The notes beneath the pieces are model-generated. The model was not told the origin of the DNA. It searched no databases and was given only the letters and a program-made list of their open reading frames with translations. This document shows positions 16,228-56,320 of a stretch of 59,430 nucleotides of DNA, one piece after another; position 1 is the first letter of the stretch; each line of letters starts with the position of its first letter. Location: the NCBI GenBank assembly GCA_944384815.1, contig CALWUW010000019.1:1-59430 (forward strand), given 5' to 3'. Both the position numbers and the translations under genes were made by a program. The stretch is from an uncultured Clostridia bacterium (GTDB taxonomy: Bacteria; Bacillota; Clostridia; Oscillospirales; Acutalibacteraceae).

Positions 16228-16232
16228 TAGTA

Positions 16233-16280
16233 ACCCTGCAAGCCTGCAACCCTACAGGCCAGCAAGCCAACAAGCCTTCC
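16233..16280. repeat. 8-nt imperfect tandem array after azlD
   Basis: Six consecutive octamers with no indels: ACCCTGCA, AGCCTGCA, ACCCTACA, GGCCAGCA, AGCCAACA, AGCCTTCC. This fills the first part of the 307-nt spacer between the convergent azlD and rimI. Confidence 0.65.
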
Positions 16281-16359
16281 CCGGGGCCTTTTCCAAAGCT
16301 TTCAGCCTGCCAACCTTGTTGTTTGCCGTTTGCCCTTCCCCTTTCCCTTTTTTCCTGGC

Positions 16360-16404
16360 AAAAAACAACCGTCGGATGCCCTTCCCGGGCTTCCGGCGGT
16401 TTTC
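16360..16404. terminator. Bidirectional terminator between azlD and rimI
   Basis: Outer arms 16367-16376 and 16392-16401 pair with a wobble or mismatch, with an inner GCCC/GGGC. Four T follow on the plus strand and six on the minus strand (16360-16365 complement). Confidence 0.55.
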
Positions 16405-16512
16405 GCTTTGTATCGGTTTTATGGAGCGCTTTCCCAGGGTCTGCCGCCTGCTGTCTATTAGCTGGAAGTCCCTGGGTTTACGGCTTATGGACTTGTGGCT
16501 CCGCGGCTTTAC

Positions 16513-16566
16513 GGCTTCCGGTGGCTTCCCGGGCTTACTGGACCTCCCGGACTTCCCGGGCTTCGT
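16513..16566. repeat. 9-nt array across the rimI stop codon
   Basis: Six 9-nt units such as TGGCTTCCC, GGACCTCCC, GGACTTCCC run from outside the gene through its stop codon (16535) into the last codons, where they give the EAREVREVQ tail. Confidence 0.55.
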
Positions 16567-17053
16567 CCCCTTCCTTTTCCGAAGAAAGAAAGCAGGTCAG
16601 CAGCAAAGCGTCCTCCCGGGGATGGGTGTAAAAATCCTTCCGCCGGCCCACCGGCTGAAACCCCAGGGAGCGATACAACCCCAGAGCTGCCTGGTTGGAC
16701 GGGCGCACCTCCAGTGTAACAAAAAGCCCATTCTGTTCCCGGGCCCAATCCAGAAGGGACTCCACCAGCTTCCGCCCTACGCCGGCCCCGCGGGATTCCG
16801 GGAACACCGCCACGTTGTCCACATAGCATTCCCCGCACACCGCGTGCATTCCCGCGTAGCCCAAAACCTTCCGGCAGGAGCCTTCCCCCTCCTCTCCATT
16901 TTCTCCCGCCTCTGCTACACGGAATACCGCTGTGGGGTTTTCCAGCTCCGCTTCCAGGCCCTCCCGGGTCCAGGGTTCTGAAAAACAAATGGCTTCCAGC
17001 CGGGCCAGCTCCGGGATATGCCGTTTTTCCATGGGTACGATCCCAACTGTCAA
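16535..17053 (-). CDS. rimI: Ribosomal protein S18 alanine N-acetyltransferase
   Basis: 172-aa GNAT enzyme, cytoplasmic, predicted to acetylate the N-terminal Ala of ribosomal protein S18. Starts TVGIVPMEKRHIPELARLEAICFSEPW, typical of RimI; the acetyl-CoA motif is VFPESRGAGVGRKLVESLL (about 95-113), followed by EVRPSNQAALGLYRSLGF (about 126-143). Start overlaps the rlmA stop by 4 nt. It normally sits with tsaBDE; here it ends a polA-rlmA-rimI operon. A generic GNAT function is the alternative. Confidence 0.88.
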   Translation of the reverse strand: MTVGIVPMEKRHIPELARLEAICFSEPWTREGLEAELENPTAVFRVAEAGENGEEGEGSCRKVLGYAGMHAVCGECYVDNVAVFPESRGAGVGRKLVESLLDWAREQNGLFVTLEVRPSNQAALGLYRSLGFQPVGRRKDFYTHPREDALLLTCFLSSEKEGDEAREVREVQ

Positions 17054-17943
17054 GGCTCCTCCGTCCTTTCATACACCAAAAAGTCAAACCCGATCTCTGT
17101 TTTCAGCTGGGAAGTCTGCCGCAGGCGCTCCCCGCCCTCCCGGGGGGTTTTCCAATAATAGGGCGTCATGGCGAACAGATCCTGAAGAGCGTTTCCGTCT
17201 CTCAATTCCAAAACGCCCTCCACCTGCCGCCGGAAAAGGAACCGGAACCCGGGATATTCCGTATCCTTCCGCTGGTTTTCGTAGGGCTCCGTATACAAGA
17301 TCTCCTTCAGCCCGTATAAATGCCTGGGGGAAGGGACCGCCAGGATCAGCCTTCCTCCGGCGCCGGTGACCCGGCGCAGCTCTCCCGGCTCAATGGGAGC
17401 AAACACATTCACTGTGCACCGGGAGATCCCGTCTTCCGCCGGGATGCGGAAGGCGCTGGCCACAGCGAAATCCGCCTGCTTCCCGTATTTTTTCGCCGCC
17501 GCTTTTACGGCGAATTTGCTGATGTCAAACCCCAAAACCCCGGGCGCTTCTCCGGGAAAGGCCTGCTCCAAAGCCCGGGCCATCCGGCCGGTGTAATAGC
17601 CTTCCCCGCAACCTACGTCCAAAAGGCAGCCTTCTTTCCGGGCCTCCGCCTCTTCCTTCCGGGCAAAGGCCTCCTGCACCAGCGTTTCCAGCTCCCGGGC
17701 AAACAGATCGTAAGCCCCGGATTCCAAAAACCGTCTGCGGGCCGCCACCATTTCCCGGGTATCCCCGGGAATTTTGGAGTGCATGTATTGGGAGGGCAAA
17801 AGATGCACATAGCCCTCCGCCGCTTTGTCAAAGCAATGCCCGGCGGCGCACCGGCAGATCTTCTCTTCCTGTTCCAGAGCCTTTCCGCAGATGGGGCAGG
17901 CAAAATACGGCTTGTGCCGGTTTTCTTTTTCCATCTTTTCCAT
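17050..17943 (-). CDS. rlmA: 23S rRNA (guanine-N1)-methyltransferase, RlmA family
   Basis: 297-aa SAM-dependent methyltransferase predicted to methylate G745 or G748 of 23S rRNA. The N-terminal zinc site (CPICGKALEQEEKICRCAAGH) and the next segment, FDKAAEGYVHLLPSQ with MHSKIPGDTREMVAARRRFL, match RlmA closely. The SAM motif I is LLDVGCGEGYYTG (about 105). ATG at 17943 is preferred (AGAGG SD 6 nt upstream); a TTG at 17964 would overlap the polA spacer. Coupled to polA (about 24 nt) and rimI (4-nt overlap). Some family members confer tylosin resistance. Confidence 0.88.
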   Translation of the reverse strand: MEKMEKENRHKPYFACPICGKALEQEEKICRCAAGHCFDKAAEGYVHLLPSQYMHSKIPGDTREMVAARRRFLESGAYDLFARELETLVQEAFARKEEAEARKEGCLLDVGCGEGYYTGRMARALEQAFPGEAPGVLGFDISKFAVKAAAKKYGKQADFAVASAFRIPAEDGISRCTVNVFAPIEPGELRRVTGAGGRLILAVPSPRHLYGLKEILYTEPYENQRKDTEYPGFRFLFRRQVEGVLELRDGNALQDLFAMTPYYWKTPREGGERLRQTSQLKTEIGFDFLVYERTEEP

Positions 17944-17967
17944 TTTTGCCTCTTTCTTTTCCAAGGG

Positions 17968-20529
17968 TCATCCCTTGGCGTCGTACCAGGTTTCTCCTAT
18001 GCTGGCTTCCGCCACCATGGGCACCCGCAGCTCCACGGCGTTTTCCATTTCCTGCCGAAGAAGCTCCGCCACCTTCTCCGCCTCTTCCCGGGGCGCCTCC
18101 ACGATCAGTTCATCGTGCACCTGAAGGATCAGCCGGGCCCGAAGACCTTCCGCCTTCAGCCGGTCCGCCACACGGATCATGGCGATTTTGATAATGTCCG
18201 CCGCCGCCCCCTGAATGGGCATATTCCGGGTCACTCGTTCCCCAAAGGCCCGGGTGTTGAAATTAGAGGAAGCCAGCTCCGGCAGATACCGCCTTCTTCC
18301 GAAGAGAGTCTCTGCGTATCCCAACGCCCGGGCGCTTTCCACAGACTGCTGCATATAGCTCTCCACGCCGCTGTAGTGAGAGAAATAATCCCGGATATAC
18401 TGCTCCGCTTCCTTTCGGGTGACCCCAATATCCTTGCTTAAAGAAAAGGCTCCGATGCCGTAAACAATGCCGAAATTCACGGCTTTTGCCCGGCTGCGCA
18501 TCAAAGGCGTCACCAGTTCTTCCGGAACATGGAACACCTGGGCCGCCGTCCGGCGGTGAATATCGTCGTTTTCCAGGAACGCCCGGATCATTTCCTCATC
18601 CCCGGAAACATGGGCCAGCACCCGCAGCTCGATCTGGGAATAGTCCGCGTCCACCAATACCCAGCCGGGGCGGGCGGTAAAGAACCGCCGCAATTCCCTT
18701 CCCAGCTCCGTGCGCACAGGGATATTCTGGAGATTGGGCTCTGTGGAGCTGATCCGCCCGGTGCGGGTCTCCGTTTGGTTGAAGCTGGAATGGATCCTTC
18801 CATCCTCGCCCACCACTTTCAGAAGCCCGTCGCAATAGGTGGATTTCAGCTTGGCAAGGGTGCGGTAAGAAAGCACTTTCTCCACGGCGGGGTGCTCCCA
18901 TTTCAGGCTTTCCAGCACTTCCGCGTTGGTGGAATAGCCGGTTTTGGTCTTTTTCCCGTGGGGCAGCCCTAATTTTACAAACAGCGCTTCCCCCAGCTGC
19001 TTGGGGGACTGAATGTTAAAGGAATATCCCACCAGCTGGTAGATCTCCTCCTGCATGGCCTGGATCTCCTTTTCCAGAGTCTCTCCGTATTCCCGGATAC
19101 CCTGGGCGTCCACGCCAAAGCCTTCCAGCTCCATTTCCGCCAGCACCCGGGAAAGGGGGATCTCCATCCGCTCCAAAAGATCGGACTGCTGTTTTTCCCG
19201 GATCTTCTCCTCCAAAACCGGGAAGAGCCGGGTCAAAAGCTCCGCCTCTCCGGCCTTTTCCGGAAGCTCCGGAGAAGCCGGCCGCTGGGAGACGCCGTAT
19301 TCCTGAGCCAGCCGGGGCGGGTCATACGCCGCGCCGGAAGGATTCAGCAAATACGCCGCCAGAAGGGTGTCCCACAAAGAAACGGCAGGCCGGATCCCCT
19401 GGGGAAGAAAGTGCCCGTAAAAAGCCTTGCTGCCGTGAAGCACCAGTCGCAGATCTTTCCGGGAAAGCAAAGCCTCCAGCTCTTCTCCGGAAGGGAGCAG
19501 CGCCGTCTCCCCCTGCCAGGCCACATAAAGTCCCTCCGGCGCCAAAGCGCAGAAAAGGGTCTCCTGGGATGCAAGGCTCTCCAGCAGCGCCCGGGGCTCC
19601 TTTTCCAGAAGCAAAACCGGGGCTTCTTCTTTTTCCTGCTTCTCTTCTCCGGAAGAAAAATCCGCCTTAACCCCCATTTTCTCCATCAGGCTGAACAGCT
19701 CCAGCCGGGCCATCAGCCGCCCGGCCTCCGGGGAGACCTCTCCGGGAATATAGGCGGACGGATCCTTTTCCACCGGGGCGTCCCGGCGGATGGTCCCCAA
19801 CCAGAGGCTCATTTCCGCGCTTTCCCGGCCTTCTTCCAGCTTTTTCCGCATAGCCGGACGGATCTCCGGGGAAGAAAGATTTTCGTAAACGCCTTTCAGG
19901 GAGCCGAATTTTCTAATCAGCTCCCCGGCACCCTTGGCGCCGATCCCGGCCACACCGGGAATATTATCGGAAGAATCCCCCTGAATGGCTTTAATATCCA
20001 CCAGCTGCTCCGGGGAGACCCCGTATTCCTCCCGGATCTTCTCCTGGTCGTAGAGGGTGGCCGTGGGCTGCCCCATTTTGGTGGCCGCCAAACGCACGGA
20101 TACTCCCGGCTCCACCAGCTGCAGGCTGTCCCGGTCTCCGGTGGCGATCACGCACTCCCAACCTTTTTCCCGGCAGGAGGCCGCCATGGTCCCCAGAATG
20201 TCATCCGCTTCATAGCCCGGGCATTCCACCAGCTTATACCCCAGATCCGAAAGAAGTTCCTTTAAATAAGGAAGCTGCTGGGCCAGCTCTTCCGGCATTC
20301 CCTTCCGCTGGGCTTTGTAGCCGGCATAGGCTTTGTGCCGGAACGTGGGAGCCTTCTGATCGAAAGCAATGGCCACGGCGTCCGGGTTTGTTTCCCCCAG
20401 AAGCTTCTGCAGCATGGTCAGAAACCCATAGATTCCGTTGGTGAAAAGACCTTCTCCCGTGGTCAGCAGCCGGATGCCGTAAAAAGCCCGGTTCAAAATG
20501 CTGTTTCCGTCCAGCACAAGCAATTTCAT
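17968..20529 (-). CDS. polA: DNA polymerase I
   Basis: 853-aa repair and Okazaki-fragment polymerase. The 5'-3' exonuclease domain (about 1-290) begins LLVLDGNSILNRAFYGIR and has the GVAGIGAKGAGELI helix-hairpin motif. The middle domain (about 310-470) lacks the DxE exonuclease residues, so it has no proofreading, as in many Firmicutes. The polymerase domain shows motif A DADYSQIELRVLAH (about 620), motif B RSRAKAVNFGIVYG (about 670) and motif C VHDELIVE (about 803). Heads an operon with rlmA and rimI. Confidence 0.97.
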   Translation of the reverse strand: MKLLVLDGNSILNRAFYGIRLLTTGEGLFTNGIYGFLTMLQKLLGETNPDAVAIAFDQKAPTFRHKAYAGYKAQRKGMPEELAQQLPYLKELLSDLGYKLVECPGYEADDILGTMAASCREKGWECVIATGDRDSLQLVEPGVSVRLAATKMGQPTATLYDQEKIREEYGVSPEQLVDIKAIQGDSSDNIPGVAGIGAKGAGELIRKFGSLKGVYENLSSPEIRPAMRKKLEEGRESAEMSLWLGTIRRDAPVEKDPSAYIPGEVSPEAGRLMARLELFSLMEKMGVKADFSSGEEKQEKEEAPVLLLEKEPRALLESLASQETLFCALAPEGLYVAWQGETALLPSGEELEALLSRKDLRLVLHGSKAFYGHFLPQGIRPAVSLWDTLLAAYLLNPSGAAYDPPRLAQEYGVSQRPASPELPEKAGEAELLTRLFPVLEEKIREKQQSDLLERMEIPLSRVLAEMELEGFGVDAQGIREYGETLEKEIQAMQEEIYQLVGYSFNIQSPKQLGEALFVKLGLPHGKKTKTGYSTNAEVLESLKWEHPAVEKVLSYRTLAKLKSTYCDGLLKVVGEDGRIHSSFNQTETRTGRISSTEPNLQNIPVRTELGRELRRFFTARPGWVLVDADYSQIELRVLAHVSGDEEMIRAFLENDDIHRRTAAQVFHVPEELVTPLMRSRAKAVNFGIVYGIGAFSLSKDIGVTRKEAEQYIRDYFSHYSGVESYMQQSVESARALGYAETLFGRRRYLPELASSNFNTRAFGERVTRNMPIQGAAADIIKIAMIRVADRLKAEGLRARLILQVHDELIVEAPREEAEKVAELLRQEMENAVELRVPMVAEASIGETWYDAKG

Positions 20530-20643
20530 ATTGTTTCTCTCCTGTTGTTTTTTTAGAAAGGATTCCCAAAGGGGCGCCCATCCATTCCGCCCGGCTCTCC
20601 CGGCAGCGGTCCGGCTTTCCGGCGCCTTGAAAAAACCGGTTCC

Positions 20644-20652
20644 AGTATACCA
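20644..20652 (-). promoter_or_regulatory. Possible extended -10 promoter of polA
   Basis: TGGTATACT on the minus strand, about 115 nt before polA; no good -35 at 17 bp. Confidence 0.35.
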
Positions 20653-20740
20653 CGTTTTCCGGAAAAGATGAAGCCTTAAAGAAGAAGCCTTCCGGCGGAT
20701 TTGCCCCGGTTTTCCGGAACCCGCCGCCCTTCCTCTTGCC

Positions 20741-20828
20741 GCCCTGTTCTTTCGCCTCTCTGTTTCCCTGTGGCTCCATGGTTCTGTATCTCTGCCGCCC
20801 TGCTTTTCTGCTCTTCTGCTTTTCTGCC
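20741..20828. repeat. 8-nt imperfect tandem array, 11 units
   Basis: Eleven consecutive octamers without an indel, consensus NYYCTGYN (GCCCTGTT, CTTTCGCC, TCTCTGTT, TCCCTGTG, GCTCCATG, GTTCTGTA, TCTCTGCC, GCCCTGCT, TTTCTGCT, CTTCTGCT, TTTCTGCC). It occupies the middle of the 526-nt spacer between polA and the divergent acyltransferase-like gene; the rest is low-complexity T/C-rich DNA. Confidence 0.75.
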
Positions 20829-21055
20829 GCGAAACAGGGAATCTTTCTTTCCCCTTTTCCTTTTTCCTTTTTTCCTCTTTCTACTCCCTTTTCTTGACAA
20901 GCCCCGGGAAACCTTTTACACTTAAAGCCGTAATTGTGTAATCCTGCGAAACAGCTGCAAACCACCGGCCACCGGCTACCGGTCGTGACTGAGCGGCCTC
21001 TCCGGGATGGTTTGATTTTCCCGGAACTGTATCCTTTTCCGAAAGGAGTCTTTCT

Positions 21056-21883
21056 ATGTCTTTGGCGTTTTTCCGGTCTTCCTCCTGCGCATCTTCCCCC
21101 ACCTCCCAGGAGCGCCCCTCCCGGATCCACCTGATGGACGAGCTGCGGGGCTTTGCCGTTTTCTGCATGGTGTTTTATCACGGGTTTTATACCATGGCCT
21201 ATTTATTCGGGATCCCTCTGGGGGACGTGTTTTTCCGGTTCTTTACCCCGGCGGAGCCCTGGTTTGCCGGGCTTTTCATTTTGATCTCCGGCATATCTTC
21301 GGCTCTTTCCCGTTCCAATCTGCTAAGGGGACTGAAGCTTTTGGCGGTAGCCCTGGGAGTAACACTAGTGACGGCGCTGGCGGTGTCCCAGGAGATCATT
21401 TTGTTTGGCATTCTTCATTTTCTCTCCACCTGCATGATCGTATTCGGGCTGTTTCAGCTTCTGGAGAAAAAGCGGGGCGCGGCTCCCCGGGAATTCCGCT
21501 TCTGGCCGCTGCTGGTCTGCGCGCTGCTGTTCCTGCTGACCATGAAGCTCAAGCAGCACGTGCTCTTTATTCCCTTTGGCCCGGAAATCCCTATCCCCCA
21601 AGAGTTGTACACCTGGGGCGTGCTGACGCCTTTGGGCTTCCCCGGCCCGGGGTTCTCTTCCTCGGATTATTTTCCCCTGCTGCCCTGGTGCTTCGTGTTT
21701 TTCGCCGGAACGGTTGTGGGCCGTCTGGCCAAAGAGGGGAAATTTCCCGCCTTCTCCTATAAAAGCTGCATTCCCTTTTTCTCCTTTTTAGGCCGCCACG
21801 CCCTTCTGATCTATGTGCTGCATCAGCCGGTGATTTACGCCTTGTGCTGGGCGGGCACTTCCCTGGCCGCTCTTTTCTCCTGA
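21056..21883 (+). CDS. DUF1624/HGSNAT-like acyltransferase membrane protein
   Basis: 275-aa polytopic membrane protein. After a short N-terminus, HLMDELRGFAVFCMVFYHGF opens the heparan-alpha-glucosaminide N-acetyltransferase catalytic-domain family (DUF1624); about seven hydrophobic helices follow. Members are thought to move acyl groups across the membrane onto sugars or cell-wall polymers, but the bacterial substrate is unknown. AAAGGAG SD 7 nt before ATG. Monocistronic, flanked on both sides by octamer-repeat spacers. Confidence 0.82.
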   Translation: MSLAFFRSSSCASSPTSQERPSRIHLMDELRGFAVFCMVFYHGFYTMAYLFGIPLGDVFFRFFTPAEPWFAGLFILISGISSALSRSNLLRGLKLLAVALGVTLVTALAVSQEIILFGILHFLSTCMIVFGLFQLLEKKRGAAPREFRFWPLLVCALLFLLTMKLKQHVLFIPFGPEIPIPQELYTWGVLTPLGFPGPGFSSSDYFPLLPWCFVFFAGTVVGRLAKEGKFPAFSYKSCIPFFSFLGRHALLIYVLHQPVIYALCWAGTSLAALFS

Positions 21884-21922
21884 GCCTTGCCCAAGGCAAC
21901 GGCGTCTGCAAAGGAGCGTTCC

Positions 21923-21978
21923 CCGGATTTCCGGATTCCTGGTTTCTCGGTTTCCCGGATTTTCAGACTTTCCGAATT
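21923..21978. repeat. 8-nt imperfect tandem array, 7 units
   Basis: CCGGATTT, CCGGATTC, CTGGTTTC, TCGGTTTC, CCGGATTT, TCAGACTT, TCCGAATT in strict register. A shorter 9-nt array (TTTCCGGCG, TTCCCGGCA, TTCCCGGTG) follows at 22143-22169 in the same 473-nt spacer before tex. Confidence 0.65.
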
Positions 21979-22277
21979 TCAAACCCATTTCCTTTCCTCC
22001 CGGGGGGCACCCTCCCGGGATTTGCTTTTTTTACGGCTTTCCGATATACTGAATACCGGTTATACCGGTTTTGCGGGAATTTTCAGGCGAATTTTCGGCG
22101 CGGACTTTAAGCCGGATTTTCCCGGCATTTTCGTGTTTTATATTTCCGGCGTTCCCGGCATTCCCGGTGTTTTCAGCGCATCTGATCCTTTGATTCTCGG
22201 ATTCTTCGGCATTCCGGTTTTTCGGAAGGCAGCTCCCACAGAATCACCGCCTGCATTCTGCAGTTTATGTAAAAATC

Positions 22278-22321
22278 AAAAGCGTTTTCTTCGCCTCGAT
22301 CAGCAGGAAACGGCGCTTTTT
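22278..22321 (+). terminator. Terminator-like hairpin in the tex upstream region
   Basis: AAAAGCG (22278-22284) pairs with CGCTTTT (22314-22320), with a further TTTC/GAAA inner pairing and a T run at the end. It ends about 35 nt before the tex start, so it may be the distant end of the upstream gene or an attenuator in the tex leader. Confidence 0.4.
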
Positions 22322-22356
22322 ACCAATGAAAACGGATGAAAACGGAGGCATACCCT

Positions 22357-24519: not shown

Positions 24520-24584
24520 TTTTCCGGAGCTTTGCTTTTCGGATGCTCATTCTATCATTCTAAATAAAAGGAAGGATGGTTCCC

Positions 24585-25313: not shown

Positions 25314-25320
25314 TGCGCCA

Positions 25321-25349
25321 TTGATTTTATCCGAAAAATCCTTTATACT
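25321..25349 (+). promoter_or_regulatory. Promoter of ychF
   Basis: TTGATT (25321-25326), 17-bp spacer, TATACT (25344-25349), starting 8 bp after the phosphatase stop codon. The leader is about 170 nt. Confidence 0.72.
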
Positions 25350-25424
25350 TTTAGAGCTTACGTGTTCCGTGGATCGTGGATCTTATTTTATCCCGCTGCG
25401 GCTCAGCTCCGGAGCGGAAGATAC

Positions 25425-25460
25425 CCAAGATCTCCAAGACCCCCAAGCTTTCCAAGCTTT
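25425..25460. repeat. 9-nt array in the ychF leader
   Basis: CCAAG recurs at 25425, 25434, 25443 and 25452, an exact 9-nt period. Confidence 0.5.
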
Positions 25461-25526
25461 GGAATCTTCGGAACCCCAGCCAAACCCTGTTTTGCAAGAA
25501 TTTTCCATAGAAAGGCCTGATCCATT

Positions 25527-26621: not shown

Positions 26622-26717
26622 TGTCTGCCACCGCCCACCGTCCACCGTATATCGTATACCGCGTACCATACGCCGCGTCGGTTGATTTTTAAAATTTTTC
26701 ATTTTAAGCGTTTGCCG

Positions 26718-26756: not shown

Positions 26757-26759
26757 TTG

Positions 26760-26797
26760 CCTTTCTGTATTTCCGCCTTTCCGTATCTCTGCCTTTG
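26760..26797. repeat. 8-nt array downstream of the ychF terminator
   Basis: CCTTTCTG, TATTTCCG, CCTTTCCG, TATCTCTG, CCTTTG in register. Further low-complexity stretches with CATAT and GTAAACA motifs at 7-8 nt spacing occupy about 26850-26930. Nothing else was recognised in this 417-nt spacer. Confidence 0.55.
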
Positions 26798-27038
26798 AAA
26801 AATCTTTTTTTGGAAAGCCGAAAGCCGAAGGCCGGCGTCCGGCGGCATATGGCATATAGCAGATGATAGATGGTATATAGTAAAAGCAAACCGTAAACAG
26901 TAAACAGCAAACAGCAGACGTCCGACTGCCCATTTTCTTTCAACGCTCTTTTTACCCTTCTTTTTTCCAAAAATTTTTTTCGGCGGCATATTTTTTGGAA
27001 TTCAGGGCCAAACTACCATTGGAGGTGCAGTTGAACGT

Positions 27039-27797
27039 ATGAAACATTTTAAACAAAGCAAACCCGGAAAAAGCAGCAAAGGTTTTTATGTAGCTCTGGG
27101 ACTCTGCCTCATGGCCGTAGGCGTGGCGTCCTGGGTAACTTTCGATAGTATGCGTCCCTTTACCGAAGATGATTCCTCCTCCCAGTGGATGCAAACGGAA
27201 AAGGTGGTCAGCGGGGTGAAAGTTCCTTCCTCCTCCGCTTCTTCCTCTTCCTCCGTTTCTTCCGCTTTGGAATCCTCTTCTCTGCCGGAGTCCTCCCAGG
27301 AGGCTCCCTCGTCTTCCTCCTCCCAGCCTGTTTCCTCCCAAAGCGAGCCTCCCGCCGTTTCCACGGGGACCTCTCCGGAGTCTTCCGCCGTGCCTACGCC
27401 GGACGCTCTGCAATATCCCTTGGGAAATTCCATTTCTAAGGGTTTCAGCGGGGAAGAGCTTCTGTTTTCGGAAACCATGAAAGACTGGCGGGCCCATACC
27501 GGAGCGGATCTTCCCGGTGAAGTGGGAGATTCCGTAAAAGCGTCGGCCGCCGGTATTGTAAAATCGGTTTCCTCGGAAAGCATTTACGGCGTCACCGTTG
27601 TGGTGGATCACGGGGATCTGACCGTTTCCTACTGCGGATTGGGCACCACTTCCGTGGAAGCAGGACAGTTTGTAGGCCTGGGTGATGTGCTGGGCACTTT
27701 GGGAGATGTCCCCTGCGAAACGGCGGACGGCCCCCATCTGCATCTGGAAGTGAGCCGGGAAGGCACACTTTTGGATCCCGCTTCTCTGCTGCAATAA
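27039..27797 (+). CDS. M23 family metallopeptidase, SpoIIQ-like
   Basis: 252-aa membrane-anchored protein. A basic N-terminus (KHFKQSKPGKSSK) and one helix (about 15-35, YVALGLCLMAVGVASWVTFD) precede a 60-residue Ser-rich linker and a compact M23 domain (about 135-252) with HTGAD and GPHLHLEV, so the zinc ligands appear intact. Size and layout resemble clostridial SpoIIQ, the forespore side of the engulfment channel with SpoIIIAH; this is inference. A general cell-wall hydrolase is the alternative. GGAGGTG SD lies 11 nt before ATG. No clear promoter; a sigma-F-type site was not identified. Confidence 0.82.
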   Translation: MKHFKQSKPGKSSKGFYVALGLCLMAVGVASWVTFDSMRPFTEDDSSSQWMQTEKVVSGVKVPSSSASSSSSVSSALESSSLPESSQEAPSSSSSQPVSSQSEPPAVSTGTSPESSAVPTPDALQYPLGNSISKGFSGEELLFSETMKDWRAHTGADLPGEVGDSVKASAAGIVKSVSSESIYGVTVVVDHGDLTVSYCGLGTTSVEAGQFVGLGDVLGTLGDVPCETADGPHLHLEVSREGTLLDPASLLQ

Positions 27798-28754: not shown

Positions 28755-28880
28755 ACTGTGTTCCTCCTATAGCAAACCGCCCTGTCAGGCGGCTTATAAA
28801 TCTTTTTCTTCCCTACATCTTATGCAGGAAGCCCCGGGAAGGACTCTGAAACCGAAAAATTATGCAGCACAAAATCAAAT

Positions 28881-28914
28881 GAAAAGAGGCCGGACAACCG
28901 TCCGGCCTCTTTTC
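28881..28914. terminator. Orphan bidirectional terminator between divergent genes
   Basis: A perfect 15-bp stem (28881-28895 with 28900-28914), 4-nt loop, and T/A runs inside the arms. It lies between divergent DUF11 and lexA, where neither gene needs a terminator, so it implies a small unannotated transcript or a relic. Confidence 0.7.
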
Positions 28915-29074
28915 ATTAGCTTGAGGGTATATTGAGGAGGGTAGAACATGAATCAAAGATCGGTGCGGCTCCGATCCCTGATTACAAGTGTATTATATCC
29001 AGTTTTTCCGTGGCAGTTGTTAAGATGCTATGAATATTCTTTAAATACTTTGGGCAATTTCCCCGGAAAGATTT

Positions 29075-29225: not shown

Positions 29226-29273
29226 AACACCGGAACATAGGGAGCACAGGAACACAGAAACACAGAACTCCAA
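29226..29273. repeat. 8-nt array in the lexA leader
   Basis: AACACCGG, AACATAGG, GAGCACAG, GAACACAG, AAACACAG, AACTCCAA in strict octamer register. A CAATAACAGT-type repeat follows at about 29288-29310. Confidence 0.6.
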
Positions 29274-36642: not shown

Positions 36643-36696
36643 TCTGCTTGTGATCTTGCTGATCTTGCTTTCTTGTTTCCTTGTTTCCTTGCCTTT
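36643..36696. repeat. 9-nt imperfect tandem array upstream of the GNAT gene
   Basis: TCTGCTTGT, GATCTTGCT, GATCTTGCT, TTCTTGTTT, CCTTGTTTC, CTTGCCTTT in register. The rest of the 632-nt spacer to 37252 has a possible promoter (TGGAAA/TATACT, 36825-36853, minus) and the terminator at 37097; nothing else was recognised. Confidence 0.55.
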
Positions 36697-41545: not shown

Positions 41546-41609
41546 CTTAACTGCCTAATCTCTTAATCTCTTAACTATTTAACTGCTTAACTGCTTAATC
41601 GCTTAACCG
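41546..41609. repeat. 8-nt imperfect tandem array, 8 units
   Basis: CTTAACTG, CCTAATCT, CTTAATCT, CTTAACTA, TTTAACTG, CTTAACTG, CTTAATCG, CTTAACCG with no indels, in the 174-nt spacer between the GH31 and racemase-family genes of one operon. Confidence 0.78.
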
Positions 41610-41641
41610 CATGTTTCGCCGCTGTTTTCTGCTTCCGCCTT

Positions 41642-43915: not shown

Positions 43916-44677
43916 CTATTCTGCCGGTTTTGCCGGTTCTGCCGACTGTTCCGATTCTTCCGGCTTTTCCGGTTGTTCCGGCTGAAAATATCCCCGGGCC
44001 GTGGCTTCCAGATGCCGGCGCATCCATTCCCGGGCCTCCTGAGCGTCCCCTTTTTTCAGAGCTTCCAGGATCTGCCCGTGGTAATAGGAGCCTTTTTCCA
44101 CACCGATCTTCTCCACCACCCGGTTAAAATACTCCCGCAGGCACTGCAAGATCATGGAATAGCAGCGGATCAGAATGGTATTTCCCGTCATACCGGCCAC
44201 AGCGGCGTGAAAAGCGAAATCATAATCCGCAAAACGCTCGATGTCCGCCCGGGAATCCAGCATTTCCCTGTAATTTTCTTCCAGCTTTCCAATGTCCTCC
44301 GGTGTGGCCCGCTGGGCGGCCAGATACACGCTTTCCAGCTCGATGATCCTGCGGAACTCCAGCATATCCTGAATGGTGCAGGTGTCCGCCTTAGTCATGT
44401 GCACCGCCAAAGCCCGGCTTTCAAACAGGTCCGCTTCCTCAAATTTCCGAAGAAATCTGCCTTTTCCCTGGCAGGTCTCAATAATACCGCAGCTTTCCAG
44501 CCGCTTCAGGGCTTCCCGAACGGACACCCGGCTCACCTGAAACCGGGCCTGCAGCTCATTTTCCGAAGGAATCTTATCCCCGGGCTGCCAGTCTCCCTGG
44601 GCCAGCATGATTTGCAGCCGCTCAAACAGCTGATCGCTGATTTTCGTTTTTTGGATTCTCTCTTCTGCCTGTGTCAA
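43916..44677 (-). CDS. GntR/FadR-family transcriptional regulator
   Basis: 253-aa regulator. N-terminal winged HTH (about 10-75, with GDKIPSENELQARFQVSRVSVREAL), then the all-helical FCD ligand domain (about 95-225; metal-binding Asp/His around FADYDFAFHAAVAG). The last 21 residues are a Pro/Glu/Gln tail coded by a 9-nt array. TTG 44677 (AAAGGA 9 nt upstream) is preferred over an upstream TTG at 44710 with no SD. It leads the GH31-transketolase operon and probably represses its own promoter through the palindrome at 44736. Confidence 0.87.
   Translation of the reverse strand: MTQAEERIQKTKISDQLFERLQIMLAQGDWQPGDKIPSENELQARFQVSRVSVREALKRLESCGIIETCQGKGRFLRKFEEADLFESRALAVHMTKADTCTIQDMLEFRRIIELESVYLAAQRATPEDIGKLEENYREMLDSRADIERFADYDFAFHAAVAGMTGNTILIRCYSMILQCLREYFNRVVEKIGVEKGSYYHGQILEALKKGDAQEAREWMRRHLEATARGYFQPEQPEKPEESEQSAEPAKPAE
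43919..43981. repeat. 9-nt array coding the GntR C-terminal tail
   Basis: Seven units in frame: TTCTGCCGG, TTTTGCCGG, TTCTGCCGA, CTGTTCCGA, TTCTTCCGG, CTTTTCCGG, TTGTTCCGG. They encode a Pro-Glu-rich tail just before the stop codon. Confidence 0.7.
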
Positions 44678-46215: not shown

Positions 46216-46303
46216 GATCCGTGGATCTGTGTATCTGTTCACCTGTGGATCCATAAATCTCAGTTCGGCAGCTCGGCAGCTCAGCAATCCATCAATCTGC
46301 CAG
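46216..46303. repeat. 8-nt imperfect tandem array, 11 drifting units
   Basis: GATCCGTG, GATCTGTG, TATCTGTT, CACCTGTG, GATCCATA, AATCTCAG, TTCGGCAG, CTCGGCAG, CTCAGCAA, TCCATCAA, TCTGCCAG. Neighbouring units resemble each other while the ends of the array do not. Confidence 0.7.
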
Positions 46304-46473: not shown

Positions 46474-46505
46474 GGTTATACGGTTGTACGGTTGTATGAT
46501 TGTAT
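46474..46505. repeat. 8-nt array, 4 units
   Basis: GGTTATAC, GGTTGTAC, GGTTGTAT, GATTGTAT, in the same gldA leader as the preceding array. Confidence 0.65.
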
Positions 46506-46571
46506 GCTCCTCTTGAAAAAGGGAAATCAAAATCCGCCTGCGACACAAAAAACATCTGTTCTCTTTTGCTT

Positions 46572-46601
46572 AGTGTACCACGATTTTCGGGAAAATTTCA
46601 A
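46572..46601 (-). promoter_or_regulatory. Possible gldA promoter with internal palindrome
   Basis: TTGAAA (46596-46601), 18-bp spacer, TACACT (46572-46577) preceded by TGG. ATTTTC-GG-GAAAAT (46583-46596) lies in the spacer and could bind a regulator. The gldA leader would be about 395 nt. Confidence 0.45.
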
Positions 46602-46699
46602 CCGAAACGCGGTTTTTTCTTCGCTCTCTTTTTTACCGATGCTGTCCTGGTTTCTTTCAATTGGAAGCCTCTTCCCTAAATGAATGAGCAAAATAAAGA

Positions 46700-46728
46700 T
46701 TGACACCCCTTCTCCCGACACATACAAT
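46700..46728 (+). promoter_or_regulatory. Promoter of the AraC-family gene
   Basis: TTGACA (46700-46705), 17-bp spacer, TACAAT (46723-46728); leader only about 11 nt. Confidence 0.8.
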
Positions 46729-46745
46729 TTAAGTACAAAGGAGTG

Positions 46746-47807: not shown

Positions 47808-47821
47808 ATTTCAGAAGAAAC

Positions 47822-50215: not shown

Positions 50216-50268
50216 TCTGTCTGTCCTCCTTAAAATCTCAAAACAAAAAATTCGTTTTACTTCGTTAT

Positions 50269-50297
50269 ATTCTAAACAAGCGGATTTCCTATTTCAA
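50269..50297 (-). promoter_or_regulatory. Promoter of phosphoketolase
   Basis: TTGAAA (50292-50297), 17-bp spacer, TAGAAT (50269-50274). The rest of the 410-nt spacer to 50625 is T/C-rich; the only structure seen is a 12-bp inverted repeat, AAAAAAAGTTAC (50320-50331) and its complement (50534-50545). Confidence 0.65.
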
Positions 50298-50625
50298 TTT
50301 CCCCATTCTGCCACTTTCAAAAAAAAGTTACCTGATACGACTGTTTTCCTATTTTTCGCCTTCCTTTATTGCTTTTCGGCAAAAATTCCCCTGGAGAGTT
50401 TTTCTCTCTTTCCTTCTTTAGCACGGTAAAAAGCCCCATGTTTCCCGGAAAAACGCCCTTTCCCGTTTTCTTTCCCCTATCTGTGTTCTCCGGAAAGAGG
50501 TTTTCAACAAAAGGCACAGAAACTTTGTGATACGTAACTTTTTTTCTATCAGTTTCCCCTATAAAAATCGTTTCATTCCTTCCGCAAAGAAAAAATTTAT
50601 TTCCTATTCTCAAATTTTGCCGTGT

Positions 50626-51417
50626 CTATTCTTCCTGCCCGTTCATCTTCGCCACAAAGGACGCGCTTTTCACGGTCATCTCCACCCAAGACGGCCGAAA
50701 CCCGCTTTTCAAAGCATTGCGCACCGAAGGGAGGTTGGACCAGGCGGCGCAGTAAAAGGGAATCTTCCCCCGTTTCAGGATCTCCAGCGCCAGCCGGCTG
50801 GTAAGGGTCCAGGCCACGCCCCGGCGGCGATAATCGGGAAGCACATCCACCCCGATCTGCCACATGGTCTCGCAATCCGCGGAGGCGCCCGCCAGGCCGA
50901 TCAGCTTCTCCCCTTCATAGGCGCCCACCGCCAGCACATCCAGCTGTTTCCGCTTTTCGCACAGGGCATTGGAAAACCACGGCGTGTACAGCTCCGGCTG
51001 CCCCTGCAGCTGCGGCTGTTCCAGAATTTTAAGAGGATAAAAGCAATCCGGCGCCCGGAGCCGCTCCATATCCGGAAGAAAATATTCCGCCATAAAACAG
51101 ACCCGCCGGCCCTTTTCCTCCATGGCGTCGTTCAAAACATGGAGATTGGGCGTTTCAAAGCAGTGTTCCATAGGAAACCGGCCCAGGTAGGCTTCCACCG
51201 CTTCCCGATATTCCGGCCGCACGGAAGCCACTACGTTCTGCCCGTAGGAGATCAGGTTGCAGTCCAAGGGAAGATCCAGATATTTCCTGGCCTGGGGGTT
51301 GGCTTTGGAAAGCACCACCACGTTTTCCCGGCGCAAAAAATCCTCTCTCCGGCACCCGGCGTCCTGGGCGGATTGCTCCATGGCGATCCGCAGCACGTCT
51401 TCATTGGTAAACCCCAT
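50626..51417 (-). CDS. GNAT family N-acetyltransferase (C-terminal GNAT domain)
   Basis: 263-aa protein. The N-terminal half (about 1-130) is an uncharacterised domain. The C-terminal GNAT fold (about 140-260) has the acetyl-CoA motif QIGVDVLPDYRRRGVAWTLTSRL (about 185-207; R/Q-x-x-G-x-G/A form RRRGVA) and NLPSVRNALKSGFRPSW (about 228-244). Substrate unknown. AGGAGGGG SD 6 nt before ATG, inside AT-rich DNA that borders the 10-nt array. Confidence 0.82.
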   Translation of the reverse strand: MGFTNEDVLRIAMEQSAQDAGCRREDFLRRENVVVLSKANPQARKYLDLPLDCNLISYGQNVVASVRPEYREAVEAYLGRFPMEHCFETPNLHVLNDAMEEKGRRVCFMAEYFLPDMERLRAPDCFYPLKILEQPQLQGQPELYTPWFSNALCEKRKQLDVLAVGAYEGEKLIGLAGASADCETMWQIGVDVLPDYRRRGVAWTLTSRLALEILKRGKIPFYCAAWSNLPSVRNALKSGFRPSWVEMTVKSASFVAKMNGQEE

Positions 51418-51470
51418 ACGATTCCCCTCCTGTATGTCTCATTTCTAAACCTTATCTTCCGGAAGTTTTT

Positions 51471-51590
51471 CAAGAATTTCCAAGGCATTCCAAAGTGTCC
51501 TAAAGCATCCAAAAGCATCCGAAAGTATCTGAAAGCATTTTAAAGTATTCCAAAATATCCTAAAACATTCTAAAGTTTTCCAAAACATTA
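51471..51590. repeat. 10-nt imperfect tandem array, 12 units
   Basis: Twelve 10-nt units in perfect register, consensus YAAAGYATYC (for example TAAAGCATCC, AAAAGCATCC, GAAAGTATCT, CAAAATATCC, TAAAACATTC). It fills the spacer between the GNAT start and the AraC stop. Ten-base spacing of A-tracts would give phased, bent DNA. Confidence 0.82.
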
Positions 51591-51603
51591 CTGAAAGCGT
51601 TTT

Positions 51604-52383
51604 TTATTTCTCCCGGCGGGAAACCTGCCGCTGGTATTCCCCGGGCGTGCAGCCGCAGATCTGGCGGAAATAGCGGGTAAAATGGCAGATGCTCTTAAAC
51701 CCGCACAAAGCCGCCGCCTGCTGCACCTGCATGGCTTCATTGGTCAAAAGGTTCCGGGCTCTGTCCATACGGGCCGCCAAAAGCTCGTCCCGGGGAGAAG
51801 CCTGAAAAAACTGCCGGTAATACCGGTAAAACTGGCTTTTCCCCATATTGACCAGCCCGCACATCCGGTAAATGTCCCATTCCTCCTCGCACTGGGAAAG
51901 AATGGCCAGCCGGGCTTTCTGAAACTGGGAAAGCAGAGAATCCGGGTCCCCGGCCCCCTGCTCCAGGCTCCGGGCCGTGCTGATCAGCAGCCGCCGCAGC
52001 AAAAGATCTCCCATTTCCTTCCAGTGCTGCCCCCGGTTCAGGTATTCTTCCTGCATCACCCGGATCTGCCGGTTCAAGGCATCCGGAGACGCCGGGTAAA
52101 GGATCCGGTTCCAGGGGATTCCGTAGCGGCGGATTTCCTCCTCCGGGGCGGAGAAATGCACATAGCTGTTGCGGAATACCTCCACCCCCCGGTATTTCTG
52201 GTACGCCCCGGGAGAATACAAAAGACAGGAGCCTGCAGGGGCTACCGCCGTTTCCGTTTCAAAGCTTACGCTCATAGGCGCCAAAAACAAAAGAAACAGC
52301 CAATCCCCGCTGCCATAAGGGCGGAAGATCACGTCGTGGTCGTCATTCTTCCTGGAAAACTCACAGTAGTGGATCTGGAACAT
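51604..52383 (-). CDS. AraC-family transcriptional regulator
   Basis: 259-aa regulator. N-terminal cupin arm (about 1-140; SVSFETETAVAPAGSCLLYSPG) and C-terminal double HTH (about 165-255; DRARNLLTNEAMQVQQAAAL then GFKSICHFTRYFRQICGCTPGEYQ). ATG 52383 with GGGAGG 6 nt upstream. Divergent from the arabinofuranosidase gene and therefore its likely activator (inference). Confidence 0.88.
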   Translation of the reverse strand: MFQIHYCEFSRKNDDHDVIFRPYGSGDWLFLLFLAPMSVSFETETAVAPAGSCLLYSPGAYQKYRGVEVFRNSYVHFSAPEEEIRRYGIPWNRILYPASPDALNRQIRVMQEEYLNRGQHWKEMGDLLLRRLLISTARSLEQGAGDPDSLLSQFQKARLAILSQCEEEWDIYRMCGLVNMGKSQFYRYYRQFFQASPRDELLAARMDRARNLLTNEAMQVQQAAALCGFKSICHFTRYFRQICGCTPGEYQRQVSRREK

Positions 52384-52559
52384 AAAAAACCTCCCGCCTT
52401 CCAAGGATTCTCCTGCCTGCCGCCGGCGGACAGGCCGAATATATTCTCAAAATTTCAAAACAGAAAAAGCCCCGGCAAAGAAAGACTCCCGAAACCATTC
52501 CGTTTTTTATAGGGTACTGAAAATCGGACAAAAAGTCAATAGAATCGGATGATGCGCTA

Positions 52560-52588
52560 TTGGAAAACCCGTTTCCATCCCGTATGAT
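52560..52588 (+). promoter_or_regulatory. Promoter of the arabinofuranosidase gene
   Basis: TTGGAA (52560-52565), 17-bp spacer, TATGAT (52583-52588). The spacer contains GGAAA-N5-TTTCC (52562-52576), a possible regulator site. Confidence 0.65.
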
Positions 52589-52590
52589 AA

Positions 52591-54153
<1,563 letters not shown>

Positions 54154-54244
54154 GAAAACCGGATTCTGCCGTAAAGGCACTTGTTTTCTCCAGCCTGCGG
54201 CGCTATACGACGCAAGGCCATTGAAACTGTAAACCATGGAATAA

Positions 54245-54297
54245 AAACGTCCCGGCACGGTTCCAAAAGGAGCCGGCCGGGACGTTTGGCGTTTTGC
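54245..54297 (+). terminator. Terminator after the arabinofuranosidase gene
   Basis: Long hairpin: 54245-54256 with 54076+200 (54276-54287), 12 bp, plus an inner 7-bp stem (54258-54264 with 54269-54275, one wobble), followed by a GGCGTTTTGCTT tail. Confidence 0.78.
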
Positions 54298-54437
54298 TTA
54301 AAATATGCCCGTTTTGAAAACGTAGAGAAGGAGGATCCCGGAAATTCCGCTAAGACGCTTTTTCTTCTTTTCCTTTACCTGTCATCTTTCGTCCTCTAAA
54401 ACCTTTTGCCCATGCACAAATGAAAGTTCGGATATTC

Positions 54438-55205
54438 TCAGAATCTGCAGAAAAAGGACAGCAAAGAAGGGATGTGAAGAAACGCCTCGTCCAAGCGGTA
54501 AGAGCACACACTCTCTTCCTCTTTCATAGACAAAGGCAATTTTTCCAATGCTGTTTCCGCTTCCTCAACTTTGAGATGCACCGCATCTGCAATCTCCTGT
54601 ACCGTGACATAGCCTTTCGGATCCGCAAGAGTCCGCTCACAAAGCAAGCACAATACTTTCAGCACATTCAAATCGGAAAGCGCCTCCAGTGTGGTTTTGA
54701 TTTCCCCCAGCTGGGCGCCCTTGGGCGAAACATATCCTTTCCCCAAAGAAAAGAAAATGCTGTTGTGCTTTCTCCCGGTACTGCCTTCCGCTTGGGAACA
54801 AATTGAAAGCCCCCAAGAGGAAACATCCTCCCTTGCGTAGTCTTTCTCTTGCCAATAGGCCCTGTTTTTATATCCGTCCGTTGCCGCTGCCTCGTGCAGC
54901 AAAGCCGCCATGCGGTAGGCGCTTTCGAAAGCGCCTTTTTCCGGTAAGGCCATAAAATAGTCTTTGATTTTCAGACAAATATCCCCTAATCCTTCCGTGG
55001 GTTTATACCCTAAAAGCGCGTCTACCGAAACGTCAAAAATCCCAGCCATACGGGGAAGGAGCTGAATATCCGGGCAGCACTGGGCTGCTTCCCATTTGGA
55101 CACCGCTTGGTTGGTAACGCCCAGAGCCTTTGCTAGATCCTCTTGTGTAAATCCCTTTTGTTTTCTTAAAAAAGCGATTTGTTCGTGGATTTTAAGTGTC
55201 TCCAT
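54438..55205 (-). CDS. XRE-family regulator with C-terminal winged-helix-like domain
   Basis: 255-aa regulator. N-terminal HTH_3 (about 7-62; IAFLRKQKGFTQEDLAKALG then VTNQAVSKWE), a linker region (about 70-165) and a C-terminal segment (about 170-240, LNVLKVLCLLCERTLADPKG with VTVQEIADAVHLKVEEAETAL) resembling an ArsR/winged-helix module. GAGGTGA SD. Target and effector unknown. Confidence 0.85.
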   Translation of the reverse strand: METLKIHEQIAFLRKQKGFTQEDLAKALGVTNQAVSKWEAAQCCPDIQLLPRMAGIFDVSVDALLGYKPTEGLGDICLKIKDYFMALPEKGAFESAYRMAALLHEAAATDGYKNRAYWQEKDYAREDVSSWGLSICSQAEGSTGRKHNSIFFSLGKGYVSPKGAQLGEIKTTLEALSDLNVLKVLCLLCERTLADPKGYVTVQEIADAVHLKVEEAETALEKLPLSMKEEESVCSYRLDEAFLHIPSLLSFFCRF

Positions 55206-55243
55206 GTTCTCACCTCGTTTTTGATTTCTGCAGCTGCAAGTCT

Positions 55244-55271
55244 ATTTTATCAATACACGCCGGAAAAACAA
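55244..55271 (-). promoter_or_regulatory. Possible promoter of the XRE gene
   Basis: TTGTTT (55266-55271), 16-bp spacer, TAAAAT (55244-55249). Confidence 0.35.
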
Positions 55272-55328
55272 TGACGCATTTGTTGGATCAACCCCCGCTG
55301 CATCCAACTTCCGGTTGGACGTTCTGTT

Positions 55329-55363
55329 TAAAAAAATGCCGCCTATGAAAAACAGGCGGCATT
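55329..55363 (-). terminator. Terminator after the AraC-GyrI gene
   Basis: A perfect 10-bp stem (55335-55344 with 55354-55363), 9-nt loop, and seven U on the minus strand. Confidence 0.87.
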
Positions 55364-55371
55364 TACACGTA

Positions 55372-56277
55372 TCAGCACTTTATAATGGGGAGCCACAGCT
55401 CAATGTAGCGGGAGTGGTTGACCGCAGGATCTCCCAGCTTGTAAAACCAGTGGTGCACCGATATTTCAGGGGCGGACGCCAGCTCATATCCAGAAGACGG
55501 AAGCCATTCACAAACAGCCTTTTTCCGAAGCTCCTGAAACAACTCCGTGGGATACTGCGTTCTTTCGGTTTCACAAATAAGGTACATCCCCTCGGGAACC
55601 ACTATTTTTTCAAATCGCTTTGCATCTTCCGTGCCTAATTCCTTATCCAAATTATTGGTGGTCCATTCACTTAATTGGGAGGCAATGTAAAAGTCATAGC
55701 CATCCTCACCATATCCCCACAAGATATTGTATCCGGTATCGCAGTCATGGGACAAACCTTTGAGAATATACTGATTTGTCCGGGTCGACACATAGAAATC
55801 ACATTCTTGTTCCATGCGTTCTGCCAAAGTTCCTGTAAACCGCCTTTTGTATCCCGTAAAGATCATTTGCGGTTTCTTCTCCACCCTGTACTTCATAACA
55901 GCACCGCCTTCCAATGAAAAATTCAGTACAAGGCGAGAAAAGGATTTTAAGCTGCTGCCATTGTTTCGAGCCTGGGACGGCAGTATTCCGTGAAATTTCT
56001 GAAAAGCTTTCGCAAAGCTGTCCGGACTTTCATAGCCATACTTCAACGCCACATCAATAATTTTGCCATTACCTGCTGCAAGTTCTTTCCCGGCAAGAGA
56101 CAGCCTTCGGCTGCGTATATACTCGCCCACAGTAAAACCGCAAAGAATGCTGAATACCCGCTGGAAGTGATAGCTGGATGAAAAGCTTTGCGCCGCAACC
56201 ACATCGTAATCCATATTCTCCAACAAATGATTTTCCATGTAGTCGATGGACTTTTGCAATCCGTTGATCCACTCCAT
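55372..56277 (-). CDS. AraC-family regulator with GyrI-like effector domain
   Basis: 301-aa regulator of the Rob/SoxS-plus-GyrI type. The double HTH is N-terminal (about 5-105; AAQSFSSSYHFQRVFSILCG and YGYESPDSFAKAFQKFHG). The C-terminal GyrI-like ligand domain (about 128-300) contains CEWLPSSGYELASAPEISV. Such proteins usually sense drugs or small hydrophobic molecules. GGAGGG SD 6 nt before ATG. Confidence 0.9.
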   Translation of the reverse strand: MEWINGLQKSIDYMENHLLENMDYDVVAAQSFSSSYHFQRVFSILCGFTVGEYIRSRRLSLAGKELAAGNGKIIDVALKYGYESPDSFAKAFQKFHGILPSQARNNGSSLKSFSRLVLNFSLEGGAVMKYRVEKKPQMIFTGYKRRFTGTLAERMEQECDFYVSTRTNQYILKGLSHDCDTGYNILWGYGEDGYDFYIASQLSEWTTNNLDKELGTEDAKRFEKIVVPEGMYLICETERTQYPTELFQELRKKAVCEWLPSSGYELASAPEISVHHWFYKLGDPAVNHSRYIELWLPIIKC

Positions 56278-56288
56278 CTTCTTCCCTC

Positions 56289-56320
56289 CTTGTCTGCTTG
56301 TCTGCCTGTCTGCTTGTATT
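56289..56320. repeat. 8-nt array, 4 units
   Basis: CTTGTCTG, CTTGTCTG, CCTGTCTG, CTTGTATT, immediately upstream of the AraC-GyrI gene. Confidence 0.7.

Follow-up and report, generated by a model that had tools for sequence, protein, structure and literature searches.

Short tandem arrays with drifting 7–9-nt units in the spacers of an uncultured Clostridia genome

We identified 85 tandem arrays with periods of 7–11 nt in 123 kb of intergenic DNA from an uncultured Clostridia bacterium of the gut (family Acutalibacteraceae, assembly GCA_944384815.1; here G000). The analysis centres on a stretch of 59,430 nt (contig CALWUW010000019.1, or C19; hereafter the window), one contig of a 2.0-Mb draft genome that comprises 37 contigs and is 92.6% complete. 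Neighbouring units within an array are alike, distant ones less so, and unit sequences are largely private to each locus. The arrays are probably neutral products of short-step tandem duplication, a process that appears unusually active in the G000 lineage. Among named records, the LexA of the window is closest to those of Candidatus Caccousia, Anaeromassilibacillus and further gut Clostridia.

Ungapped degenerate arrays in the spacers

The original prediction, made from the letters of the window, described at least nine unrelated spacers composed of consecutive octamers. A lag-8 excess over shuffled sequence, the absence of which would have spoken against it, is present in the window (z = 8.1). 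In other spacers, lag 8 (z = 5.1) ranks below lag 9 (6.9) and lag 5 (7.4), and far below lags 2 and 3. In plain lag autocorrelation the signal is diluted, and local composition acts as a confounder (in the other spacers, lags 2–9 are all elevated). It was therefore dropped as the main measure, and local segments were instead scored against locally shuffled spacers. The detector scores lag segments (match +1, mismatch −1.5), requires at least 2.5 units and excludes low-complexity units. The main genome survey used a score of 12, with 11 as a laxer and 13 as the strictest cut-off.

At score 11, the 38 spacers of the window contain 18 arrays, whereas 10 local dinucleotide shuffles give 0.1 on average. 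The corresponding count for 214 spacers in 20 other stretches of the genome is 37, against 1.7 (3 shuffles). At score 13, 15 arrays remain in the window and 26 in the other spacers, with none in either shuffled set. Tandem Repeats Finder (TRF), run on the window, recovered like arrays. The claim that many spacers hold ungapped drifting arrays is thus borne out.

Most of the nine named loci also stand up individually when compared with 400 shuffles of their own spacer. Six (16233, 21923, 29226, 41546, 46474 and 56289) were matched by none of the shuffles at any lag from 5 to 12. The locus at 20741, where only 20800–20827 scores, was reached by 4 of 400 and is also clear, and 46216 is marginal (17 of 400). 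The lag-8 score at 26760 was reached by 206 of 400 shuffles, and this locus is a 16-nt repeat rather than an octamer array. We further identified arrays that the original prediction did not list: period 7 at 16321, 20847, 20962, 26628, 26813 and 52590, period 9 at 22143 and 25418, period 10 at 51467–51574, and octamers at 36663 and 46261. Arrays of the window include:

16232..16276, no strand: period-8 array AACCCTGC AAGCCTGC ..., beginning 4 nt past an azlD-like stop codon
20800..20827, no strand: period-8 array CTGCTTTT, the sole scoring part of the 20741 locus
20847..20881, no strand: pyrimidine-rich period-7 array (lag detector)
20962..20982, no strand: period-7 array CCACCGG, 3 units (lag detector)
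21923..21980, no strand: period-8 array CCGGATTT, 7 units, between an acyltransferase-like gene and tex
25418..25473, no strand: period-9 array AAGATACCC, 6 units (lag detector)
26628..26667, no strand: period-7 array CCACCGC, beginning 6 nt past a ychF-like stop codon
26759..26796, no strand: 16-nt repeat, 2.4 copies, the 26760 locus (TRF; lag 8 not significant)
26813..26919, no strand: period-7 array, 15 units, drifting from GAAAGCC to ACAGCAA (lag detector)
29241..29267, no strand: period-8 array GGAGCACA, upstream of lexA
36663..36691, no strand: period-8 array TCTTGCTT (lag detector)
41556..41610, no strand: period-8 array TAATCTCT/TAACTGCT with a 32-nt block repeat (TRF and lag detector)
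43919..43984, minus strand: period-9 array within a GntR-family gene, a coding example with an in-frame period
46216..46246, no strand: period-8 array GATCCGTG, marginal (lag detector and shuffles)
46261..46297, no strand: period-8 array CAGCTCGG (lag detector)
46474..46506, no strand: period-8 array GGTTATAC, with a single change per step (lag detector and shuffles)
51467..51574, no strand: period-10 array, nearly 11 units (lag detector)
52590..52621, no strand: period-7 array ACAGACA, upstream of an arabinofuranosidase gene
56278..56317, no strand: period-8 array CTGCTTGT, directly upstream of an AraC-family gene (minus strand)

Array periods form a narrow band

The genome survey covered 821 kb of G000 including the window, of which 123 kb are intergenic and 698 kb coding. 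Genes were called with a small purpose-made hexamer script, and intergenic borders are therefore approximate. Two pairs of surveyed stretches overlap (L041/L195 and L201/L202, about 8 kb in sum); no intergenic array of period 7–11 was counted twice, and one coding array possibly was.

At score 12, the survey contains 90 intergenic arrays. Periods of 7 (31 arrays), 8 (36) and 9 nt (13) dominate, and the remaining arrays have periods of 10 (3), 11 (2), 12 (1), 13 (1), 14 (2) and 18 nt (1). The proposal of the octamer as the general unit therefore does not hold. None of the 90 arrays has a period of 4–6; a single period-6 array occurs in a stretch added later, and a single period-4 array among the 214 spacers at score 11. 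When degenerate 5-unit arrays were planted, the detector recovered 29% at period 4, 49% at period 5 and 68% at period 6 (periods 5–6 overall 49–77%), and more than 90% at periods 10–14. Since periods of 5–6 and 10–14 are detectable and yet few or none are seen, the 7–9-nt band is real.

Unit identity decays along the array

Among 44 arrays with at least five full units, mean identity between units at distances 1–8 is 0.78, 0.69, 0.63, 0.59, 0.54, 0.53, 0.50 and 0.48. The detector selects on identity between neighbours, so the fair test of drift compares distance 2 with distances of at least 4. Identity is lower at the greater distances in 35 arrays and higher in 8 (Wilcoxon p = 3e-5), confirming that adjacent units are alike and distant ones less so. 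When unit order was permuted 300 times, the observed identity of neighbours lay above all permutations and that of third neighbours below all. Adjacent full units form 348 pairs; no change separates the two units in 59 of these, and a single base change in 119. Transitions account for 381 of 580 differences between neighbours (66%), against 37% at control lags. The most extreme gradients are the 15 heptamers at 26813–26919 of the window and a smooth series of 12 octamers at 19094–19189 of stretch L206.

Few units recur between loci. Only 4 pairs of arrays share an exact unit among 91 arrays compared, and rotations of GCCAACAA occur in both L037 and L202. The statement that each locus has its own unit is thus correct for exact words, but weaker similarity slightly exceeds both null models: 299 octamer pairs have 5/8 matches, against 254 and 239 expected, which is above all 60 replicates of each null.

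We compared the decay curve with four models of array growth, running simulated arrays through the same detector over two parameter grids and measuring fit as the sum of squared errors (SSE). Random in-place duplication of any unit, with mutation of all units, fits best (SSE 0.0012 on the first grid, 0.0015–0.0017 on the wider grid) and reproduces the entire curve at 0.055–0.06 changes per site per duplication. We rejected end growth with ageing (best SSE 0.0149), copy-with-error at end growth (0.0205) and independent mutation from one consensus (0.055, with only 121 of 1,500 simulated arrays passing the detector); widening the grids shrank the gap and left the best model the same. In-place duplication with ordinary mutation fits the decay, so a special error-prone copier is unneeded.

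Two same-genus species are nearly free of such arrays

The 90 intergenic arrays of G000 in 123 kb compare with 3 arrays, of periods 15, 21 and 29, in 68 kb of spacers from two species of the same genus (G001 and G002; one genome per species in all comparisons). These 68 kb contain no array of period 7–11 at score 12. At score 12, arrays with periods not divisible by three number 77 in the 821 kb of G000 (2 in shuffled sequence), none in 127 kb of G001 and one, a 29-mer, in 75 kb of G002. Additional samples of 57 kb and 58 kb from G001 and G002 contain none. Of 37 relatives sampled at 3 to 127 kb each, from regions that are not matched, 28 lack arrays of this class and the other 9 share 17. Ten of these 17 have a period of 7 or 10 (6 in G037, 2 in G013, and 1 each in G015 and G029). 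Among 67 collection loci of at least 10 kb, 11 have any array with a period not divisible by three; L074, L086 and L108 each have 3–4 heptamer arrays, which in L074 are one block repeated within about 220 nt. The trait is patchy, and G000 is the extreme of the sample. Several degenerate heptamer arrays occur in other Clostridia loci (L151, L074, L086 and L108), some with a common word CTAACAA.

Around lexA, gene order is little shared. Beyond lexA itself, which is common, matching extends to one further gene (27039–27797; 51%), whose counterpart lies close by but inverted in a single locus of Candidatus Caccousia avistercoris (L053). The lexA leader of that locus contains a degenerate 22-nt tandem array (match at 10001). 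Matched spacers were therefore taken at dnaA, where 13 orthologous genes are in the same order and collinear with the same-genus species. In eleven matched intervals, G000 has 6 arrays of period 7–11 at score 12, G002 has none and G001 a single one that scores 12.0 (p = 0.003); the G000 intervals contain one extra array of period 6. Counts over the whole dnaA stretch (11, 1 and 0 at period 7–11) include five G000 arrays outside the matched intervals. The dnaA stretch of G009, a member of the family, contains no array.

The spacer between dnaA and dnaN suggests the birth of an array. In G000, the end of dnaA including its stop codon forms the first of ten octamers; the same dnaA end is not followed by any detected array in G001 or G002.

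Distribution in genes, at gene ends and along the chromosome

Coding DNA is also affected, with 37 arrays in 698 kb of G000 and 1 in 249 kb of G001 and G002 (p = 1e-4). Periods are divisible by three in 35 of the 37 (13 of period 9, 10 of period 12, 5 of period 18, 4 of period 6, 2 of period 15 and 1 of period 24). One of the two others is the window array at 21923, which was tallied as coding owing to a low-scoring open reading frame and is probably spacer. Some coding arrays may be ordinary protein repeats. Stretches rich in coding arrays tend also to be rich in intergenic ones (rho = 0.53, p = 3e-4). Enrichment in genes, periods divisible by three and shared clustering together point to a mutational process filtered by selection rather than to a spacer-specific element.

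Distances from arrays to gene ends were counted with L195 left out. Arrays crowd gene 3′ ends: 22 of the 85 distances are no more than 15 nt, against 7.8 if arrays were placed at random within their spacers, and another 4 fall within 30 nt. Distances dip at 20–60 nt, a range in which terminators would probably lie. At gene starts, the 15-nt range contains 3 of 81 distances, against an expectation of 6.7. Among 24 arrays at most 20 nt from a stop codon, 8 begin inside the gene and 7 of these have the full stop codon in their first unit.

The arrays are unevenly spread, contrary to what a genome-wide process as first proposed would imply: contigs C13, C36, C6 and C19 are rich in them, while 100 kb of C12 and 60 kb of C2 contain no intergenic array of period 7–11. 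Arrays per kb of spacer track GC content at third codon positions (GC3; rho = 0.69, p = 3e-7, 43 stretches). On the complete chromosome of G009, which starts at dnaA, GC3 is high around dnaA and reaches its minimum on the far side. When G000 was placed on this chromosome by reciprocal-best anchors, which are not independent of one another, array-rich contigs fell mostly on the origin side: the stretches of 32 anchors near the origin had a mean of 3.3 arrays and those of 23 far anchors 0.6. Origin-side replication may underlie the regional clustering.

Origin of the arrays

The preferred account is neutral short-step duplication. A stretch of 7–9 nt would now and then be copied in tandem, most likely by replication slippage. 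In a young array, any unit could be recopied in place, while point mutations, mostly transitions, would build up so that the unit drifts along the array. Selection would purge duplications that break genes, so arrays would persist in unconstrained DNA (after stop codons and past terminators) and, within genes, mainly in steps divisible by three. Regulatory function is not needed to explain the arrays. A more specific version, which we put forward tentatively, is that a lineage-specific engine with a 7–9-nt step, strongest on the origin side, rewrites spacers and leaves in-frame scars in genes, the step being the footprint of one replication or repair enzyme.

Several observations weigh against this account. 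Second-neighbour identity equals the permuted mean (101 of 300 permutations reach it), and unit order thus holds only local memory. The simulations are simple and do not point to an enzyme. The spike at stop codons is sharper than mere unconstrained space predicts. At score 11, the contrast in the matched dnaA intervals is 8 arrays in G000 against 2 in each of G001 and G002. The bias toward the origin side is of moderate strength (rho = −0.55, p = 0.049, n = 13 at the level of contigs), and there are exceptions: C25, with anchors near the origin, and C10, with anchors near and far, contain no arrays, and stretch L194, with far anchors (0.69), contains five. Finally, the matched intervals total 4,000 nt in G000, against 5,070 and 4,543 nt in the relatives. 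Two array-bearing matched spacers (352 and 339 nt) exceed those of both relatives, and the rest are similar or shorter. With no greater total length, deletions must balance duplications; there is no net growth of spacers, and turnover is the better fit. Of the proposed sequence of octamer duplication, point mutation and spacer growth, duplication with mutation is supported by the decay, the transition bias and the simulations, and the restriction to octamers and the growth are not.

Loss of mismatch repair in the G000 lineage is an unlikely cause. MutS1 and MutL were not found in G000, at cut-offs passed by 38 and 37 of 40 searched genomes, respectively, including G001 and G002. G000 has a type-2 IleRS that G001 and G002 lack and with which the cell could tolerate losing the ileS-yggS-miaA-mutL-mutS-miaB block, and the predominance of transitions is also in keeping with such a loss. 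However, G003, which lacks MutL and has a stop in its MutS frame, contains in 129 kb only one 11-nt and one 5-nt array of a period not divisible by three, and none of 7–9 nt. MutL is conversely present in genomes with several heptamer arrays (G037, G040, G041 and G042). We therefore set aside repair loss as the sole cause. Homopolymer runs in G000 are like those of both same-genus species, the block may be absent only because the assembly is 92.6% complete, and mismatch repair is described, in the available text of PMC4060949, as good on loops of 1–3 nt and poor on longer ones. A defined biochemical step, such as lagging-strand flap or primer handling or a polymerase footprint, could instead fix the 7–9-nt length, with a change in that step triggering the surge. 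This possibility, somewhat doubtful as it stands, would refine neutral duplication rather than replace it. The sharp period band and the origin-side bias favour it, and a polymerase footprint has already been proposed for heptamers (as quoted in the accessible parts of PMC4679880 and PMC4692102), but none of the genes looked at proved causal. Both the 5′ nuclease and the polymerase domain are found in the PolA of the window, and G000 also has exonuclease VII, so that loss of the PolA 5′ nuclease or of exonuclease VII is unsupported.

It is improbable that the arrays are selected cis elements, such as leader or 3′-UTR (untranslated region) regulators or protein-binding arrays, as proposed for the TAACTGA repeats of Beggiatoaceae. 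Several window arrays do lie in leaders (of lexA, the AraC gene and the arabinofuranosidase gene), arrays adjoin stop codons above expectation, and the weak similarity between units slightly exceeds the nulls. Against this, no unit is common to the arrays, arrays are rarer than expected near start codons, coding DNA is affected with in-frame periods, and the matched G001 and G002 spacers are mostly without arrays. The few recurring units (the GCCAACAA rotations in L037 and L202) and the same slight excess of similarity could hint at diverged copies of one mobile or satellite element, which we consider scarcely credible because unit similarity is near the nulls and several arrays start with the final codons of their own host gene. 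An assembly or binning artefact is hardly more plausible. The assembly is a 37-contig draft, probably metagenomic, whose contigs may not all belong to one organism, and array-free and array-rich contigs differ in GC3. Units nevertheless vary from copy to copy in mostly short arrays, array density shifts within single contigs (C15 and C16), and the array-bearing dnaA region is collinear with that of the same genus.

The ileS-yggS-miaA-mutL-mutS-miaB block is intact in G001 and G002 and was not found in G000, where it is either lost or in an assembly gap. YggS was not found in G000 in a search with positive controls, MiaA was not found with one query and no positive control, and the local MiaB and IleS gave no close match. 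The type-2 IleRS of G000, on contig C11, matches the MupA/MupB models best, below their cut-offs. The genome of G003 is 99% complete; its MutS reading frame has an internal stop and no MutL scores above the cut-off.

Bacterial spacers are usually thought to change through substitution, deletion and mobile elements. The G000 lineage suggests that short tandem duplication in a narrow step can be a main route of spacer turnover, and that the arrays keep a readable record of duplication against mutation. Since G001 and G002, of the same genus, have almost none, the cause can be put to the test. A place beside a start or stop codon does not by itself make such an array regulatory.

Relation to known repeats

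Long simple sequence repeats are known to differ in copy number between strains. According to the available text of two reports, repeats of 5–11 nt are in intergenic excess in some prokaryotic taxa, with a patchy distribution and heptamers commonest (PMC4679880, PMC4060949); periods divisible by three are favoured in genes, and slippage has been proposed (Mrazek 2007, as quoted in PMC4679880; Mrazek and Huang, PMC4060949). The G000 arrays likewise have a tandem unit within 5–11 nt, are longer than chance, and in coding DNA favour periods divisible by three (35 of 37 arrays). Long simple sequence repeats are counted as exact copies, whereas only 59 of 348 adjacent unit pairs are identical here and identity declines with distance. 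The G000 arrays also differ in their largely private units, in having period 8 as frequent as period 7, and in clustering on the origin side.

TAACTGA direct repeats, described in the accessible part of PMC4679880 from Beggiatoaceae, some cyanobacteria and Bacteroidetes, are also short intergenic tandem arrays. They repeat one fixed heptamer at many loci, whereas only 4 pairs among the 91 compared G000 arrays share an exact unit, and in their main species lie mostly just upstream of starts, where G000 has 3 of 81 within 15 nt (6.7 expected). The GGGAATC and GGGGA(C/T)T heptamers of Xanthomonas and Nostoc, as far as the available text of PMC4692102 describes them, form intergenic tandem arrays that vary in length and sequence between close relatives; they follow a single G-rich consensus, for which a role in quadruplexes has been proposed, and G000 has no shared consensus. 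Exact copies and a single word are both lacking, yet the arrays are close to long simple sequence repeats and are thus a variant of them. A search of titles and abstract openings, with subscription papers outside its reach, returned no account of drifting 7–9-nt arrays with private units.

A candidate small RNA beside lexA

Positions 28876–29013 of the window (minus strand) likely encode a conserved small RNA, divergent from lexA, with a TATAAT promoter and a terminator. The candidate has a 5′ hairpin capped by GGAGCCGCACC, the stem letters of which appear, by eye, to change on both sides between species, and an unpaired, anti-Shine-Dalgarno-like stretch CCCTCCTC. A scan of the window against Rfam gave no family at gathering score; the best sub-threshold match of the candidate is STnc70 (29.1 bits, 40 needed). 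Its predicted fold has z = −3.3. A 23-nt core is exact in 29 of 261 retrieved loci, some of which represent the same place, and 37 records contain it with at most 2 mismatches.

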